From: Halofilum ochraceum
Lineage (GTDB): Bacteria; Pseudomonadota; Gammaproteobacteria; XJ16; Halofilaceae
Reading direction: 5' to 3'
Assembly: GCF_001614315.2 (NCBI RefSeq)
Contig: NZ_LVEG02000011.1
Span: 124,001 to 188,000 of the forward strand
Length of the DNA stretch: 64,000 bases
Below are positions 43,426-52,186 of the stretch, one piece after another. The notes under the pieces are model-generated. The model saw only the letters and a list, made by a program, of their open reading frames with translations, made no database searches and was not told the DNA's origin. Within the stretch, counting starts at the first letter, position 1. Each line of letters opens with the position of its first letter. The position numbers were made by a program, and so were the translations under genes.

Positions 43426-44441
43426 TCGGTCCGCACCTCGATCTCCGCCGTATCGCGGCCGTTTTCGTCGCGCGCAATCGCGAGTTCTTCCGCGATCGGG
43501 CGACGCTGGCCTGGAGTGTGCTGCTGCCGGTCGCCATCGTGTTCGGTTTCGCCTTCGCCTTCTCGGGCAGCGCGCCCGAGCGCTACACCATCGGTGTGCT
43601 CGGCGATCCGGCGGTGGCCGAGCGTGCGCTGGGGATCGACCATGTCGAATACGCCCGCGTGCGTGACCGGTCGCGCGGTGTCGAGCAGGTGCGCCATCAC
43701 GAGCTCGACCTGTTGATCGATGCACGGGAGCGGCGCTACTGGGTCAGCGACGCGTCGCCGAAAGGCTATATGCTCGAACGTGTCCTGCGTGGCGTGAATG
43801 CCGACCAGCGTGCATACACCCGCCAGTCCGTGCCCGGGCGCGTGATCCGCTATGTCGACTGGCTGGTGCCGGGACTACTCGCGATGAACATGATGTTCAC
43901 GGCCCTGTTCGGGGTCGGCTTCGTGATCGTGCGGTATCGCAAGAACGGCGTGCTGAAACGCTTCAAGGCCACACCGCTGCGCCCGGCCGAATACCTGATC
44001 GCCCAGCTCGGCTCGCGCCTGATGATCATCGTCGTCATCACCAGCGCCATCTTTATCGGCAGCCACGCGATCCTCGATTTCCCGATCCACGGCAACCCGT
44101 TCGGTCTCCTGCTCGTCCTGGTCGCCGGCGGCATCTGCCTGATCGCCCTCGGCCTGATCGTCGCCGCACGGACCGCCAGCGAGGAACTGGCCGGCGGGCT
44201 CCTGAATCTGTTCACCTGGCCGATGATGTTCCTGTCCGGGGTTTGGTTCTCCGTCGAGGGTCTGCACCCCTGGCTGCAGATCGTCGCCCAGGGGCTACCG
44301 CTGACGCATGTCATCGACGCGGCGCGCGCCGTGATGATCGACGGTGCCGGTCTCGCCGCGATCGCGCCGCAGCTTGCACTGCTGCTGGCGATGGCGGCCG
44401 TGTTTCTCGCGATCGGTGCATCCATGTTCCGGTGGGAGTGA
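43422..44441 (+). CDS. ABC-2 type transporter, permease
   Basis: A 339-residue inner-membrane protein with an N-terminal helix (VLLPVAIVFGFAFAFSG, about residues 29-45), a periplasmic part of about 100 residues (to the helix at about residue 145) and five more helices. The ABC-2 membrane signature is LVPGLLAMNMMFTALFGVGFVIVRYRKNGVLKRFKATPLRPAEYLIAQ, followed by NLFTWPMMFLSGVWFSVEGLHPWLQ and QGLPLTHVIDAARAVMIDG. It belongs with the ATP-binding protein immediately upstream. A promoter for the next unit starts about 70 bases after its end. Confidence 0.9.
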   Translation: MIGPHLDLRRIAAVFVARNREFFRDRATLAWSVLLPVAIVFGFAFAFSGSAPERYTIGVLGDPAVAERALGIDHVEYARVRDRSRGVEQVRHHELDLLIDARERRYWVSDASPKGYMLERVLRGVNADQRAYTRQSVPGRVIRYVDWLVPGLLAMNMMFTALFGVGFVIVRYRKNGVLKRFKATPLRPAEYLIAQLGSRLMIIVVITSAIFIGSHAILDFPIHGNPFGLLLVLVAGGICLIALGLIVAARTASEELAGGLLNLFTWPMMFLSGVWFSVEGLHPWLQIVAQGLPLTHVIDAARAVMIDGAGLAAIAPQLALLLAMAAVFLAIGASMFRWE

Positions 44442-44508
44442 CCGTGTCGCGATGACCGCTGCCGCTTGCCCGTCGATGATGATGCCGTCACAAACGGGCC
44501 GATCCGAA

Positions 44509-44536
44509 TTGACCTGTACCGGCGGATCGGTACAGT
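44509..44536 (+). promoter_or_regulatory. Promoter with a palindrome filling its spacer, before protease module 1
   Basis: TTGACC (44509-44514) and TACAGT (44531-44536) are 16 bases apart. Between and into the -10 lies TGTACCG-N6-CGGTACA (44515-44534), a perfect 7-bp inverted repeat. A repressor bound there would block this promoter. Confidence 0.55.
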
Positions 44537-44582
44537 AAATCCTGCGGTCGCCGGGACGCGGCCACCCACCCGCGAGACGCGA

Positions 44583-45002
44583 ATGTTCCACCGTTATCTC
44601 CTCGTCTGCGCCGGTGCACTCGCCCTGAGCCTCGGTTGCAGCGCAGGCGCTACGCAGGCCGGGAAATCCGGTGACGCCACCATCGCCAGGCGCCTGCTCG
44701 ATCTGTTCCAGGGCGCTGCGGATCACGCCGAGCTGCGTCAACGGGCCCGGGCGGCCGGCGTGCAGACCGACGACTACGGCGTCCGCGTGGATATCCAGAC
44801 AGCGGGGCTGCGGTCCGATGACCGCGTCCGGTTCGAATTCGACGGGGTGCGATTGCATCACTTCTCGGTGAAATACGAACGCGTCGCCGCCAGCGTGCGG
44901 GATGTCGATGCACTGCATGCGCTGGCGGCGCTCTCCCCGGTCCGCGCGATCACCCCGGAATACGGCAGCGCCGGACGGAGCGACAACGGAGCTTCGCACT
45001 GA
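44583..45002 (+). CDS. Lipoprotein resembling the prodomain of the protease encoded next to it
   Basis: A 139-residue lipoprotein: signal MFHRYLLVCAGALALSLGC, lipobox Cys19. Residues about 60-125 can be aligned by eye without large gaps to residues about 62-130 of the downstream protease: GVRLHHFSVKYERVAASVRD here against GVRVIAMSRGHARATVAVSD there, then DALHALAALSPVRAITPEYG against ESLRRLAEMSGVRMVAQDFG. In the protease this part lies before the catalytic domain, where subtilisin prodomains sit. Its stop overlaps the protease start (TGATG at 45000-45004), so the two are made together. It may be a membrane-anchored chaperone or inhibitor of that protease. The promoter/palindrome at 44509-44536 lies just upstream. 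Confidence 0.7.
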   Translation: MFHRYLLVCAGALALSLGCSAGATQAGKSGDATIARRLLDLFQGAADHAELRQRARAAGVQTDDYGVRVDIQTAGLRSDDRVRFEFDGVRLHHFSVKYERVAASVRDVDALHALAALSPVRAITPEYGSAGRSDNGASH

Positions 45003-47383
45003 TGCGTTCGGGTCTCCCCATGACGACGGCCCTGCTGCTCGCCGTGCTCCTGCCGGGCGACGGCCTCGCCGCGGACGCGAAGGGCAAGGCGAAAGGCCAG
45101 AACACGCCACCCGGCGTCAGCCGCGGCATCCTGCAGCAGATGGAGACCGCCGGCGTCGCATGGCGCGGCGGCCGCGCGACGGATACGCGCGGCGAAGTGC
45201 GGGCCGACGTCATCCTCGATCCCGGCATGCCCGTTACACGGACCGATCTCGCGGCGGCGGGTGTCCGGGTGATCGCGATGTCGCGAGGGCACGCGCGCGC
45301 CACCGTTGCGGTATCCGATCGCGAGTCCCTGCGCCGTCTTGCCGAGATGTCCGGCGTGCGGATGGTCGCGCAGGACTTCGGCTACCGCCGGCGCGCCGGC
45401 CTGGTTCCGAGCCGGGCGGTGGAGGTCATGAACGTCGACGCCATCAATGGCAGTGACGGCAGCCGTGCGGACCTCGACGGCAGCGGGATCACCGTCGGCA
45501 TCCTGTCCGACAGCATGTCCCGTACCGAGGACAATTCCCCCGGGGATCCGGGGGTGGTCGATGAGGACACCACGTTCGATGGCAAGGATACCGGCAGCAC
45601 GGAAGCGAAGTCCTCGCCCGTTACCATGCGTGGCAGCCGGCCTCAGGACGACGGCGAACTCCCGGCAGAGGTCGAGATCCTGCGTGACGATGCATCCGGG
45701 GAATTGGTCGACGAGGGCGCCGCAATGGCGGAACTCATCCACGACATCGCGCCCGGCGCGGGTATCACGTTTCACACGGCGGTGGCCGGCGGTATCGCCG
45801 GGTTCGCCGATGCCATCGATACGCTGTGTGCGCCCGCAAGCGGCGTCGACGTCGTGGTCGACGACATCGGCTTTCTCGCCGAGCTGATGTACCAGCGCGA
45901 TCCGATCAGCCGCGCGGCCGAGGCATGCGTTGCCCGTGGGGTTCCGTTTTTCTCGGCGGCCGGCAACAGCGGCCAGCGCGCCTTTCGCGAGACGTATGAC
46001 GACCTGCTGGCCTCCGATGACGACGACGGTCGGGAGACCCTGTTTCCGCCCAGTGAACGGGATTTTCATGACTGGGCGGGCGGCAATCCGTATCTCGAAG
46101 TGGAGGTGCCGGCCGATTCGACGGCTACCGCCGTGCTGCAGTGGAACCAGCCGGCGTTGTCCGTGCCCGCGAACACCGGCAACGGTCCGCGCATCGACCT
46201 GGATCTGCTCGCATTCAGCGACCGCTCGCCATTCAGCGTGAACACCACGCTCAGCAGCGTGATCGACCAGAAGGCGGAGACCGCGCGGGACGGGCAGGAT
46301 CCGGTCGAAGTCGTGCGGCTCGACGGGGGGAGTGGCGGGCGCACATTCTATCTGGCCGTCGACCACTGGGCCGGGGCCCAGGACGAGATCCCGCAGGGTA
46401 GCGGCACGCGCCTGGAGTTCCGCCTCGTGTTCTATGAGAGCGGGCGGCGGTCCAGCACCATCCAGTACCTCGACACGATGGGCGGGCCTGATCCCGCGGC
46501 GACGATGTACGGCCACACGGTGGCCACGGGCGTATTCGGAGTGGGTGCGGTGCCGTGGTACGACGCGGGGCGGTATCTCGCTGCCCCCAACACCGGCCCG
46601 AGCGCCAGCCGGATCGATCCGCAGTCCTACACCGCGCTCGGCGGCGCGCTCGAACGGCATTTCCGCCCGGATGGCACCTTCCGGCGCGCCACCCAGGGCC
46701 CGCAGCCGGTCATCGCCGCGACCGATGGCAACAACACCTCGTTCTTCGGGACGCCATGGGATAACACCGGGCTCGAGGACGAAGGTGGCGAGGATGATAC
46801 CCACCCCAATTTCTTCGGCACCTCCGCCGCGGCCCCGAATGCCGCGGCCGTGGCCGCGCTCCTGCTCGAGGACGATGGCACGCTGACGCCGCCGGGCATC
46901 GCCGGCCGGCTCCAGGCCGCTGCAGTCGACGTGACGGGCCGCAACGCCGCTGTGGGCTGTGACGCCGTGACCGGCAGCGGCCTCGTGGATGCCGGTGCCG
47001 CGCTGCTTTCCGGGGATGCCCCACCACGCGCCGATGCCGGGCGGGATCGGTCCGTGGACGCCGGCGACACCGTGACGCTCGATGGCGGTGACAGCACCGA
47101 CAACAATTTCGTCGACAGCTACCGATGGCGCCAGGTCGCCGGTCCGCGGGTCGACCTGACCAGCCCGGCCGGCGCCCGGACCCGCTTCGACGCGCCCGCA
47201 AGGCCGTCGACGGTCGTCTTCGAATTGCGCGTCGGTGACGCCGCCTGTCTGTCGGATTCCGATCGCGTCACGGTGGAGGTGCAAAGCGACGGTGGCGGTG
47301 GCAGTGTCGGCGGGCCTTTGCTGCTGCTCGCGCTGCTGCTGGTTACTCGCGCCCGCATGCCCCCGCGATGCGGAGTAGAATGA
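45002..47383 (+). CDS. Exported subtilase-like serine protease with altered His site (module 1)
   Basis: A 793-residue exported protein: signal peptide (residues 1-23), prodomain-like part (about 62-130), peptidase S8-like domain (about 160-640), Ig/PKD-like domain (GDTVTLDGGDSTDNNFVDSYRWRQVAG) and a C-terminal GGGGSVGG, hydrophobic stretch, Arg end like GlyGly-CTERM. Asp170 (ITVGILSDSM), Asn322 (FFSAAGNSG) and Ser608 (FFGTSAAAPNAAA) match Asp, oxyanion Asn and Ser of subtilases. Where the HGT motif is expected, the sequence reads DEGAAMAELIHDIAPGA (residues 237-253), so Glu238 may replace the His, as in sedolisins, or His247 may serve. It overlaps the lipoprotein gene upstream; an outer-membrane barrel gene follows after 41 bases. 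Confidence 0.8.
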   Translation: MRSGLPMTTALLLAVLLPGDGLAADAKGKAKGQNTPPGVSRGILQQMETAGVAWRGGRATDTRGEVRADVILDPGMPVTRTDLAAAGVRVIAMSRGHARATVAVSDRESLRRLAEMSGVRMVAQDFGYRRRAGLVPSRAVEVMNVDAINGSDGSRADLDGSGITVGILSDSMSRTEDNSPGDPGVVDEDTTFDGKDTGSTEAKSSPVTMRGSRPQDDGELPAEVEILRDDASGELVDEGAAMAELIHDIAPGAGITFHTAVAGGIAGFADAIDTLCAPASGVDVVVDDIGFLAELMYQRDPISRAAEACVARGVPFFSAAGNSGQRAFRETYDDLLASDDDDGRETLFPPSERDFHDWAGGNPYLEVEVPADSTATAVLQWNQPALSVPANTGNGPRIDLDLLAFSDRSPFSVNTTLSSVIDQKAETARDGQDPVEVVRLDGGSGGRTFYLAVDHWAGAQDEIPQGSGTRLEFRLVFYESGRRSSTIQYLDTMGGPDPAATMYGHTVATGVFGVGAVPWYDAGRYLAAPNTGPSASRIDPQSYTALGGALERHFRPDGTFRRATQGPQPVIAATDGNNTSFFGTPWDNTGLEDEGGEDDTHPNFFGTSAAAPNAAAVAALLLEDDGTLTPPGIAGRLQAAAVDVTGRNAAVGCDAVTGSGLVDAGAALLSGDAPPRADAGRDRSVDAGDTVTLDGGDSTDNNFVDSYRWRQVAGPRVDLTSPAGARTRFDAPARPSTVVFELRVGDAACLSDSDRVTVEVQSDGGGGSVGGPLLLLALLLVTRARMPPRCGVE

Positions 47384-47424
47384 ATCGGTGAGCGACCGTC
47401 ACTGCACGGAAGGGAGCAAAAGGG

Positions 47425-48084
47425 ATGTCCAGTCGATTCGCACAGGTAGCGTTCCGGACCGTAGTCCTTGCGCTCGCCGGCGCGCTGGCCGTGCCCGCGG
47501 CCCAGGCCAGCCGGACCGGAGTGGATTTCCACTTCGGCACCCTTGGTCTCGGTCTCGGAATTGATGCCCAGGTCAGTCCATACACCGGTTTCCGGTTCGG
47601 ATTCAATCGCTTCAAGACCAGCAGTGACTGGGAAGAGGATGATCTCGATTACGAGGCTGGCATCGACTTCGATACGGTGCACGGACTCCTGGACTGGCAC
47701 CCGTTCGGGGGCAAGTTTCGCCTCACGGGGGGCGTCATGGCGACGGACCATCGCATCGATGCCGCGGCCGACGTGGAAATCGGCGACGAGATCGGTGACG
47801 GCCAGGCGTCGCGGAACGGCCGCCTCGAAGCCGAGGTCAAATTCGAGGAATGGACGCCCTATATCGGCACCGGCTGGGATTGGCGGTTCGATCGCAGCAA
47901 CCTGGAAATGACGCTCGATCTGGGCGTACTGGCCAGGGGCGATCCGGACGTCGAACTGCGCGAGACGAGCGATACCGGGGCCAGCCAGCAGGACCTGAAC
48001 GAGGCGGAAGACGAAATCGAAGACGAATGGTCGGACTACAATCTCTACCCGGTCGTCCAGTTCGGTCTTCTCTACCGGTTCTGA
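47425..48084 (+). CDS. Small outer-membrane beta-barrel protein
   Basis: A 219-residue protein with a Sec signal peptide (VVLALAGALAVPAAQAS, cleavage near residue 30) and alternating hydrophobic/polar strands throughout (VDFHFGTLGLGLGIDAQ, TPYIGTGWDWRFD, LYPVVQFGLLYRF). The last residue is Phe, the insertion signal for the BAM complex. Such patterns fit an 8-10-strand barrel. An acidic helix-like stretch DLNEAEDEIEDEWSDY precedes the last strand. A strong ribosome-binding site (GGAAGGGAG) is present. It may belong to the protease unit upstream (41 bases) and act at the outer membrane with it, for instance in export or anchoring; this is inference. No known family was recognised with certainty. 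Confidence 0.7.
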   Translation: MSSRFAQVAFRTVVLALAGALAVPAAQASRTGVDFHFGTLGLGLGIDAQVSPYTGFRFGFNRFKTSSDWEEDDLDYEAGIDFDTVHGLLDWHPFGGKFRLTGGVMATDHRIDAAADVEIGDEIGDGQASRNGRLEAEVKFEEWTPYIGTGWDWRFDRSNLEMTLDLGVLARGDPDVELRETSDTGASQQDLNEAEDEIEDEWSDYNLYPVVQFGLLYRF

Positions 48085-49012: not shown

Positions 49013-49281
49013 TCTCGACCGGTATTTTCGACTCTCGTGGACGCTCGGGGATTTCAGGCAGGTTGTACTGCATGGTATGTTCACGACTATAGTCGCGTAG
49101 CGACTCCGGCTCGGTCTCCAGGTCCGCCTGAATCGCGGACCCCGGCCGACCGTGGCGTGGGTCCCTGGCAGCCAGGATGCGCTGCCCCCAGGAGGTGAAC
49201 CGCGCCACCGATTGCATCGAACGAGCGCGCCCGTCTTCCTGACGGTGCATTCCATGGACGGTCAAGCCACAGGGAGTGGAT

Positions 49282-49698
49282 ATGCCCGATATTTCCGTAA
49301 CTTCACGACTCATCCCCGCTACCCTGCTCCGTGCCGGATGCGCCGGACTGCTGTGCCTTCTCGTATCCACGGTGATGGCCTGCGCGACCGCGTCGGGCTC
49401 CGGGCAGGCGCCGGACGCCAGTGAGGCGGAGCGCGTCGAGGGCGAATACGTCGTGGAACTCGCCGGGCGCGACTCGGCTCGCGCGATGCTGGAGCAGGCC
49501 TTTGGCGACCATGGGCTCGAACGAATCGATGCCCTGGAGACGAATCGTGCGCTGTACCGGATTCGCCTGATCTCGGATCCGGGGCCGGATATCGTGCGGG
49601 AGTGGGTCGTCGGGGACGATGCGATCCTTAGGGTCGAGCCGAACTACCGCTATTCCAGTGACGACGCCACCGGCTTATCGGGCGATTTGAAGCCGTAA
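49282..49698 (+). CDS. Lipoprotein resembling the prodomain of the subtilase encoded next to it
   Basis: A 138-residue lipoprotein: long signal with lipobox VMAC, Cys34. Residues about 50-125 resemble the inhibitor-I9-like prodomain at residues about 60-140 of the subtilase that follows: GEYVVELAGRDSARAM, HGLERIDALETNRALYRIRL, and ILRVEPNYRYSSDD here against NEILVTFRNAAADQV, HGDSIGEAVDARPSMARVRI, and VAYAQPNYIYKAQ there. The xPNYxYx ending is the usual end of such prodomains. No protease domain is attached. It ends 181 bases before the subtilase, in the same direction, mirroring the arrangement at 44583-47383. AGGGAG at 49271-49276 supports ATG 49282; GTG 49276 is the other option. Confidence 0.72.
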   Translation: MPDISVTSRLIPATLLRAGCAGLLCLLVSTVMACATASGSGQAPDASEAERVEGEYVVELAGRDSARAMLEQAFGDHGLERIDALETNRALYRIRLISDPGPDIVREWVVGDDAILRVEPNYRYSSDDATGLSGDLKP

Positions 49699-49879
49699 CA
49701 GACCCGGGCAGTCGGGCGTGCTGCTGCATGCCGTTCACCGCCAGTCACCGCAGGCCCATCACAAAAAACGAGAACTTTCGTTGCGCTTCCGCGCGATTCG
49801 GGGGTGTATGTGCGCTCCCACGTGTCAGGCGCGAATGGACATCCCGCAACCAAGCGGGGAATCACAAGGAGGGAGAATA

Positions 49880-52186
49880 ATGGAATCAGTCAAAGCCATC
49901 GGCCATCCAGGTACCGGCGTCGCACTGGCGCTGCTGGTGGGCGTGATGCCATTGGCAGTGCACGGAAAAGCCAGCGGCGGCGCGGTGGCTTCGAGCTCTG
50001 CCCTCGGGGCGGCGGTTTCGCAGACGCAGATGTCGTCGGCAGATGGCCTCGGTGTGCCCGGTGTCGATTACGTTGAGAACGAAATACTCGTCACGTTCAG
50101 AAACGCCGCCGCCGATCAGGTCAGCCGACATGCCGTGCAGGCCCATGGTGACAGCATAGGGGAAGCCGTAGACGCGCGGCCGTCGATGGCCAGAGTCCGT
50201 ATCGGCGGCGGGGAGAGTGTCGCGGATGCGGTGAGGGCCTATCGCCACGATCCCAATGTCGCGTACGCACAGCCCAACTACATCTACAAGGCCCAGGCTA
50301 CGCCGAATGACCCGGACTACGGTGAGCTGTGGGGGCTTGAGAACAACGGTCAATTCGTGAATGGCACGGCCGGTACGGCGGGGCAGGATATCGATGCGGC
50401 TGCCGCCTGGGATCTGGCGACCGACTGCAGCAGCAAGCGTATTGCGGTTCTCGATACCGGAGTAAATTATGGTCATGCCGATCTTGCCGACAACATGTGG
50501 GACGGTGCGTCGAACAGCGGTCGAGATTTTGTCGGCGAAACCAACGATGACGATCCGTTGCCGGATGCAGGGCATCGCCATGGCACCCATGTGGCCGGAG
50601 TGATCGGCGCGGCAGGAGACAATTCCAGCGTGATGACCGGTGTCTGCTGGCAGGCCGAACTCATGAGTGTCCGGGTCCTGGGGGGTAATGGGCTGGGGGT
50701 CACGAGCGATATTATCGAAGGCGTCGACTACGCCGTGAATAATGGGGCAGATCTGATCAACATGAGCCTCGGCCAGGAGGAATTCGACCAGGTTCTGAAG
50801 GATTCCCTCGAAAATGCGCGCGCCAATGGTGTTCTCGTGATCGCAGCGGCGGGAAACGAAGGGGAAAATTCCAATCCGGCCAACGATCCGGTCTATCCAT
50901 GCAGCTTCGATCTCGACAACATCATCTGTGTCGCCGCGCTCGACCAGGATTACAGCCTCGCCGATTTTTCGAATTTCGGTGATACGGCGGTCGATGTGGG
51001 AGCGCCCGGCGTCAATATCCGCAGCGCAATCCCTGGCCCCCGCACGCTGGCGGACTTCGGGGACTGGGTTGGTAATGCTTCCTGGCGTACTGATTCCTTT
51101 TGCGAGCCTGGTGTCAAGATCCTGGTCAATCCGGTCGACTGGTGCGGCGGCGGAACATATACGAATAATCTCGATGCGCGCGCGTACGGGGAGTTCGATC
51201 TGACTGACAGTATCGCCGGCGGTTACACGTATTCCACCGAATACACGCTCGCCGGAAGCGACCTTCTCCAGGCTGCGCACAAAGCCGGTACCAGTCCGGG
51301 GGATCCCTTCGAAGACGGGGTGCTTGACGGTGAGGGCGAGGGTCCCATCGACTCGGATGGGGTCGTCACCGTTTCTGGCAGCATCGCGGATTGCGCTGGC
51401 ACGAACTGCAGTATCGGTTTCCGCCTGGCGACCGATGCAAGCGACGTCGCCAACGGGGTCGCGGTCGCGGGGCTCGTGGTGCGCAAAGTGGTGGATGACA
51501 CTGATGAAACGGGCTTCCTTTCCGGTACCTCGATGGCTACGCCTTATGTCACGGGCATCGCCGCTCTGGCATGGTCCGTGGCTCCCGACAAGGGTTATCG
51601 CGAAATCCGTGCCGCGGTGCTCGAAGGTGGTGACGATGTGATGGCGCTTGATGCCAATACGACGACCGGGCGGGCCGTGGATGCCCTGAAGGCGATCCGG
51701 GAGGCCAATGACCCACCGGTCGCGCAGAGTGAGTCCGCGATGACGGTGGAGAATACGCCGCTGGATGTATCGATTGCGGCCAGTGATCCCAATAACCATT
51801 CCCTCGATTACAGCGTGGCCACGTCGCCGTCCAGCGGTTCGCTGAACCTGTCAGGGAATACGGTCAGCTATACGCCTGATCCCGGTTTTATCGGCAGTGA
51901 CTCGTTTGCAATCGAAGTGGAGGACGGATTTGGCGGTACGGATGTCGCGACGGTGACTCTTGCGGTGGAGGCCGAGGTGACGGACGACGAGCCCGTAGAC
52001 GAGCCCGTAGAAGACGACGGTGATGCCGCTGGCGATGAAGGCGGTGGCAGCAGCGGCGGCGGAGGCGGTGGCGGTGCTGTCGGGGTGCACCTGCTGTATG
52101 CGCTGGTTCTCCTCGGGTTGTATCGGGCCATCGGGAGAGCGCGAGTCCGCAGAGGTGGATCGGCTGAGGATTCGCTGTCGCGCTAG
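49880..52186 (+). CDS. Exported subtilisin-like serine protease (module 2)
   Basis: A 768-residue S8 protease. Parts in order: signal peptide (residues 1-32), prodomain (about 60-140, ending VAYAQPNYIYKAQ), catalytic domain with Asp192 (RIAVLDTGVNYGH), His234 (HRHGTHVAGVIGAA), oxyanion Asn326 (VIAAAGNEGE) and Ser551 (FLSGTSMATPYVTG), all intact. About 180 residues rich in Cys, Asp and Gly are inserted before the Ser motif (FGDWVG to VVDDTDETG). A cadherin-like domain (NDPPVAQSESAMTVENTPLDV) follows, then an acidic linker, a poly-Gly run, a hydrophobic segment and an Arg-rich end, the plan of GlyGly-CTERM proteins. The start at 49880 follows AAGGAGGGAG. It interrupts the usual rpe-gph neighbourhood. 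Confidence 0.93.
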   Translation: MESVKAIGHPGTGVALALLVGVMPLAVHGKASGGAVASSSALGAAVSQTQMSSADGLGVPGVDYVENEILVTFRNAAADQVSRHAVQAHGDSIGEAVDARPSMARVRIGGGESVADAVRAYRHDPNVAYAQPNYIYKAQATPNDPDYGELWGLENNGQFVNGTAGTAGQDIDAAAAWDLATDCSSKRIAVLDTGVNYGHADLADNMWDGASNSGRDFVGETNDDDPLPDAGHRHGTHVAGVIGAAGDNSSVMTGVCWQAELMSVRVLGGNGLGVTSDIIEGVDYAVNNGADLINMSLGQEEFDQVLKDSLENARANGVLVIAAAGNEGENSNPANDPVYPCSFDLDNIICVAALDQDYSLADFSNFGDTAVDVGAPGVNIRSAIPGPRTLADFGDWVGNASWRTDSFCEPGVKILVNPVDWCGGGTYTNNLDARAYGEFDLTDSIAGGYTYSTEYTLAGSDLLQAAHKAGTSPGDPFEDGVLDGEGEGPIDSDGVVTVSGSIADCAGTNCSIGFRLATDASDVANGVAVAGLVVRKVVDDTDETGFLSGTSMATPYVTGIAALAWSVAPDKGYREIRAAVLEGGDDVMALDANTTTGRAVDALKAIREANDPPVAQSESAMTVENTPLDVSIAASDPNNHSLDYSVATSPSSGSLNLSGNTVSYTPDPGFIGSDSFAIEVEDGFGGTDVATVTLAVEAEVTDDEPVDEPVEDDGDAAGDEGGGSSGGGGGGGAVGVHLLYALVLLGLYRAIGRARVRRGGSAEDSLSR

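Follow-up and report, generated by a model that had tools for sequence, protein, structure and literature searches.

A subtilase prodomain encoded as a separate lipoprotein beside its protease in Halofilum ochraceum: a putative restraint at the membrane

Bacteria that export broad proteases must spare their own envelope, by means understood only in part, and a locus of Halofilum ochraceum raises this question in a particular form: what is the role of a lipoprotein that resembles the prodomain of the secreted protease encoded immediately after it, when that protease retains a prodomain of its own? The window, i.e. the whole stretch of 64,000 nucleotides analysed here, contains a lipoprotein gene of 139 aa (44583-45002, + strand) followed by the open reading frame of a secreted subtilase of 793 aa (45002-47383, +), designated protease 1; the pair is referred to as module 1. 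The genes overlap by one base in the sequence TGATG, the TGA stop of the lipoprotein ending, and the ATG of the protease starting, at 45002. The only promoter-like match in 44300-47700, a sigma-70-like one by consensus (TTGACC, 16 nt, TACAGT; 44509-44536, +), lies 47 nt 5' of the lipoprotein start, and both genes are probably carried on one transcript. In a congener, G001 (an Ectothiorhodospiraceae MAG by its deposited label), this pair is again joined by TGATG and comes after the same ABC permease gene. Between the two congeners the lipoprotein gene displays a dN of 0.42 and a dS of 1.22, which corresponds to purifying selection, and it is therefore a real, constrained gene.

The lipoprotein possesses a hydrophobic N-terminus ending in SLGC-S (signal peptide and lipobox, 44583-44639, +), where the lipobox Cys19 is followed by Ser, not Asp, at position +2. 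Among 17 aligned module-1 lipoproteins Met1 and this Cys are the only invariant residues, the latter being present in 17/17, and Asp at +2 occurs in 0/17. A lipoprotein devoid of Asp at +2 is sorted to the outer membrane, and by this rule the module-1 lipoproteins are predicted to go there. The family diverges fast, and the C-terminal tail varies in length, being nearly absent in one member (L081).

The lipoprotein is a gene product in its own right, not a portion of an enzyme precursor. Its residues 62-133 (44766-44981, +) form a prodomain-like domain homologous to the prodomain of its overlapping neighbour, located at residues 62-131 of protease 1 (45185-45394, +) by profile searches, hhalign and structure. 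The direct pairwise similarity is weak: BLASTP aligns lipoprotein residues 88-128 with protease residues 87-127 at an E-value of 9e-4 and 34% identity over 41 aa. When the lipoprotein of the window was compared to the whole G001 genome, its orthologue ranked first and the prodomain of the neighbouring protease second (E 8.8e-6). Three lipoproteins were then combined into a profile, whose search against 369 gammaproteobacterial genomes retrieved the protease prodomains of G001 (1.2e-11), G365 (4.8e-10), G211 (7.4e-7) and the window (2.3e-4), the last being the sole other match of the profile in that genome. Alignment of 18 lipoprotein domains with the prodomains using hhalign gave 98.8% (E 8e-17), and 98.6% when the set was restricted to prodomains without any lipoprotein row, against 0.2-2.4% in cross-family controls between module 1 and the second module described below. 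Chance similarity is ruled out by the whole-genome ranking, the profile-profile scores with their negative controls and the synteny. No relevant match, and none to a chaperone, was obtained in Pfam or NCBIfam for any of the 17 lipoproteins; the prodomain of protease 1 likewise has no prodomain match there (such as Inhibitor_I9), and a profile of the 17 lipoproteins searched against PDB sequences returned nothing relevant.

The AlphaFold model of the lipoprotein, made with the 17 aligned lipoproteins, has a mean pLDDT of 83, rising to 92-98 over residues 31-120. Its elements follow the order strand-helix-strand-strand-helix-strand (E67-73, H78-84, E89-95, E100-105, H108-115, E120-125). Subtilisin propeptides are the top Foldseek matches with a probability of 0.97, yet at E-values of 0.055 or worse. 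VIA-align gives Z-scores of 6-7.2 to the propeptides of PCSK9, subtilisin, Tk-subtilisin and fungal enzymes; POIA1, a stand-alone inhibitor, scores 6.0 and fervidolysin 5.1. NapD heads the list (Z 7.5); the propeptide fold is thus common to unrelated proteins and counts only alongside the sequence homology. The model of protease 1 displays the same propeptide arrangement at residues 66-124. An earlier note on this DNA had given the coordinates, lengths and TGATG junction correctly and had aligned the two proteins by eye. That alignment proved real, weak as it is between the two sequences and significant once relatives are included. The profile and AlphaFold checks which the note proposed returned a match and a propeptide fold, rather than no match or another fold. 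Homology, predicted fold and lipobox together bear out its central observation, namely that the prodomain exists in a second, lipid-anchored version, encoded upstream of a protease retaining its own.

In protease 1, a signal peptide and the prodomain are followed by a subtilase domain, then by a PKD domain and finally by a Gly-rich tail. The catalytic domain (residues 134-672; 45401-47017, +) is modelled as a subtilisin catalytic domain, with Z-scores against subtilisins of about 25-27. The alignment with pro-subtilisin E starts at model residue 41 (residue 64 of the protein, P0002) and extends over 322 residues, thereby covering both the prodomain and the catalytic domain. This S8 subtilisin fold with its prodomain is present, but without the Asp-His-Ser triad: the Asp lies in an SDS motif, Glu238 occupies the position of the catalytic His, and Asn322 and Ser605 are kept. 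Protease 1 is subtilase-like in fold and is not a canonical S8 member. With this Glu in place of His, the activity of protease 1 is not to be taken for granted, and the enzyme may be atypical or inactive. It belongs to a widespread subtilase subfamily with a DEGxAM motif (P0002 residues about 165-240 and 600-610; relatives L035-L089), which shares the Glu, the SDS motif and the retained Asn and Ser; the Glu is also found in relatives retrieved without that motif as search seed. Judging from these residues, the subfamily would combine the S8 fold with a catalytic centre recalling sedolisins, and a Ser-Glu-Asp mechanism is possible. Sedolisins are absent among the structural matches listed for protease 1, which is no argument against kinship.

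Downstream of the PKD domain (residues 679-760; 47036-47281, +; PF22352, E 6.5e-12), the tail of protease 1 (47294-47350, +) is Gly-rich, then displays a hydrophobic stretch and basic residues. It resembles a GlyGly-CTERM signal and scores 14.3 bits with TIGR03501, below the cut-off of 15.5. Genes for a rhombosortase (137 bits versus a cut-off of 84) and for the type II secretin GspD (586 bits) are present in the genome. One alternative reading is a lipoprotein exposed on the outer face of the outer membrane, which would retain the protease at the surface of the cell after export or position it there: the predicted destination of the lipoprotein is that membrane, and GlyGly-CTERM proteases such as VesB remain at the surface (PMC6219818). 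Rhombosortase processing, however, already provides an anchor, and surface exposure of a lipoprotein is not predictable from its sequence; such a docking role is considered unlikely.

The earlier note had proposed a search of genomes for the same two-gene overlap. A scan of genome contigs with protease 1 as a single query gave no matches, whereas an alignment of the proteases, used to scan the species genomes of GTDB, yielded 37 loci. Apart from the window, 17 loci of Gammaproteobacteria and Mariprofundaceae have the module-1 pair, with overlapping or closely spaced genes. The lipoprotein gene immediately precedes that of the protease in the Ectothiorhodospiraceae MAG, HTCC5015, Oleispira, an Oceanospirillaceae MAG, a Spongiibacteraceae MAG, seven Zhongshania, Litorivivens, Neomelitea, Spongiibacter thalassae and a Mariprofundaceae MAG. 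In Spongiibacter marinus it is also upstream, and its frame is interrupted by a stop codon in the record used (L058:4365-4847). The paired loci include cultured species (Zhongshania, Spongiibacter, Litorivivens and HTCC5015). The HTCC5015 protease frame (L036:3057-5442) is broken after about 500 codons; this and the S. marinus break reflect either sequencing errors or decay. In G179 the lipoprotein is present and the protease is cut by the contig end, and a matching lipoprotein ORF lies at a contig end in G535, a second genome of one family outside the class.

The lipoprotein is not required by all proteases of this kind, since a related protease of the congener G002 has no adjoining one; the same applies to L065. 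In the relatives from Sumerlaeota, Planctomycetota and Acidimicrobiia the protease is present and no lipoprotein was found upstream. A C-terminal membrane tail is carried by 16/17 proteases with a lipoprotein versus 1/15 without, an association confounded by phylogeny as most paired loci are gammaproteobacterial. Many paired proteases (L055, L057, L058, L061-L072, L081, L087) display a tail of another type than GlyGly-CTERM, with one hydrophobic stretch. The tail regions correspond to 45447-47380 of the window, and the hydrophobic tail of G002/L055 comes after a CFIATAAYGT motif.

A second lipoprotein/subtilase pair, module 2, is located 2 kb downstream of module 1 (49276-52186), between rpe-like (48329) and gph-like (52333) genes, and follows the same design with unrelated sequence. 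Its lipoprotein (49276-49698, +; 140 aa, VMAC-A lipobox) is a second prodomain twin by homology and hhalign. The subtilase (49718-52186, +; translation may in fact begin at the ATG at 49880) has the canonical Asp-His-Ser residues and a fervidolysin-type prodomain at residues 114-187 (50057-50278, +; PF22148, E 3.5e-11). Relatives of the lipoprotein were found in four other genomes (G037, G047, G187 and G242), immediately downstream of subtilases, whereas the window has it upstream. The module-2 lipoproteins match the prodomains of their own subtilase type (hhalign 93.3%, E 2.7e-7), not the module-1 family. A common origin of both modules was rejected, as no sequence relation exists between them (the 0.2-2.4% of the controls above). 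Two unrelated prodomain families therefore each possess a lipoprotein twin. The G047 lipoprotein ends in NYIYRSK, about where the prodomain of its own protease ends (NYIYRS); judged from these residues, the shared end would suit a product-like inhibitor.

Further observations concern the surroundings of module 2 and its genome. At loci of this type, a small fibronectin-III-like lipoprotein is encoded directly upstream of the subtilase (L015:7530-7958, L121:5127-5531 and L124:5327-5743, all on the - strand), and the operon may have three members there. A weak match of the module-2 lipoprotein in its own genome, at C4:249469, was rejected: it is a separate lipoprotein ORF in an ispE-prs-rplY-like cluster, which we take from this context to be LolB. 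A third subtilase of the genome (G000 contig C14, L005:4412-6403, -) consists of a short HGT-type subtilase domain with GSS in place of the GTS motif, followed by a metalloprotease-like stretch (ALAHELVHLL).

The relationship between the two proteins of module 1 was further assessed by comparing cognate and non-cognate pairs. A lipoprotein resembles its cognate prodomain more than it does non-cognate prodomains (p 5e-5 with 18 loci, p 7e-4 with the 12 non-redundant ones), and no excess of cognate similarity is seen in the Zhongshania and S. thalassae pairs. Partner identity is low in Zhongshania (10-18%), which together with the fast divergence of the family would suit a duplicated prodomain fragment that has kept its position while serving another role or drifting, out of contact with the protease. 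Such a fragment is very unlikely, since the linkage persists across orders and extends to a second class, another independent case exists, cognate similarity exceeds chance and the gene is under purifying selection. In the domain tree, the module-1 lipoproteins do not all fall in one clade (AU p 0.018). A single origin is thereby disfavoured, in a test of 77 columns that does not settle the matter, and the tree would fit repeated duplication or sequence exchange.

The conservation of the pair in many marine or saline bacteria suggests that the anchored copy restrains or escorts the protease in the envelope of its own cell. The reading that we favour, at about an even chance of being right, is that the lipoprotein is a periplasm-facing trans prodomain of the outer membrane which restrains the adjoining protease until export. 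We infer that it would bind the catalytic domain in trans, in the manner of a subtilase propeptide, so that any protease which is stray or has matured prematurely would stay inactive in the periplasm and at the outer membrane. The enzyme itself would fold on its own cis prodomain, be held by its GlyGly-CTERM-like tail, be processed by rhombosortase and leave through the type II system, escaping its tethered twin. This restraint is in line with the prodomain homology, propeptide fold and lipobox of the lipoprotein, the conserved pair and its cognate similarity, the membrane tails of the proteases, the rhombosortase and GspD of the genome, and the independent module-2 family beside a canonical subtilase. 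Against it stand the Glu at the catalytic His position, the variable lipoprotein tail, the relatives lacking a lipoprotein and the Zhongshania and S. thalassae pairs. Since L081 has almost no such tail, occupation of the active site by it cannot apply to the whole family. Should protease 1 not be a protease, the reading would fail for module 1, not for module 2.

A dedicated foldase or escort, in which the tethered prodomain aids folding of the catalytic domain or keeps the protease secretion-competent for the type II system, much as lipase foldases and CpaB serve their clients, is possible if doubtful. Subtilase propeptides are steric chaperones. Chaperones bound to the membrane and encoded beside their type II clients form a recognized class (PMC4713064), and a variable, sometimes missing tail suits a folded-domain role better than an active-site plug. 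Restraint is nevertheless modestly preferred on three grounds: the protease already carries a prodomain, relatives of it manage without the twin, and the lipoprotein signal, devoid of Asp at +2, points to the outer membrane, unlike the inner-membrane site of Lif and CpaB. The interpretation of the earlier note is borne out in part: the anchored prodomain-fold copy and the conserved pair are supported, and the tethered chaperone or inhibitor is putative and has to be qualified in view of the Glu substitution and the G002 protease without a lipoprotein. More broadly, and tentatively, bacteria would have repeatedly split the prodomain of an exported subtilase off as an outer-membrane lipoprotein restraining or escorting that very enzyme. 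This would have happened one or more times in either of two unrelated prodomain families, with one client bearing a Glu-based, sedolisin-like centre. A prodomain that acted in trans from the membrane would be a simple, protease-specific safety device.

Several known systems share part of this design. Lipase foldases (Lif/LipH) and CpaB are likewise membrane-tethered partners whose genes adjoin that of an exported enzyme. They differ in their N-terminal inner-membrane transmembrane helix and unrelated folds, and are no copies of a client domain (PMC4713064, PMC13381987). The lipoprotein is similarly encoded beside its client, and has a lipobox in place of the transmembrane anchor and no chaperone kinship. 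VesB is comparable to protease 1 as a secreted serine protease with a propeptide and a GlyGly-CTERM-type tail, the H. ochraceum genome also encoding rhombosortase and the type II system; it differs in being trypsin-like, and the available part of its description mentions no propeptide lipoprotein partner (PMC6219818). Spi of Streptococcus pyogenes is a propeptide analogue encoded beside the secreted protease SpeB, here too a bacterial one; unlike in the lipoprotein pair, the enzyme is a family C10 cysteine protease, the fold is another and Spi is said to act in the cytoplasm (cited in PMC2873492 and PMC3462683). The Bfi/Bti proteins of Bacteroides are small, several of them are predicted outer-membrane lipoproteins, and their genes lie beside C10 protease genes with which they are co-transcribed, self-protection having been proposed. 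They are staphostatin-like in contrast to the present lipoproteins, not propeptide homologues, and their targets are cysteine proteases (PMC2873492, PMC3462683).

The closest parallel is provided by the stand-alone propeptide-like inhibitors of subtilases established in fungi, yeast, plants and apicomplexans, for which MEROPS family I9 includes POIA1, yeast IB2, Arabidopsis SPI-1, Toxoplasma MIC5 and Plasmodium SUB1-ProM (PMC6993865). Free subtilase propeptides and these eukaryotic proteins inhibit subtilases tightly (PMC6993865, PMC10580911). As in the present pair, the propeptide fold is encoded by its own gene, and SUB1-ProM also adjoins subtilase genes. The I9 proteins are eukaryotic and none is described as lipid-anchored (PMC6993865), whereas a bacterial lipoprotein is found here, whose sequence still matches the prodomain of its own neighbour and whose inhibitory action is putative. 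No bacterial stand-alone subtilase propeptide, nor a lipoprotein version, was found in the literature searched, from which subscription papers are mostly missing. Stand-alone subtilase propeptides are therefore known, the published examples found being eukaryotic; new with respect to that literature, Pfam and NCBIfam is a subtilase prodomain in the form of a lipoprotein, beside a protease whose own prodomain resembles it. If the proposed role is correct, stand-alone subtilase propeptides would extend from eukaryotes to bacteria, where they would be given a fixed address.
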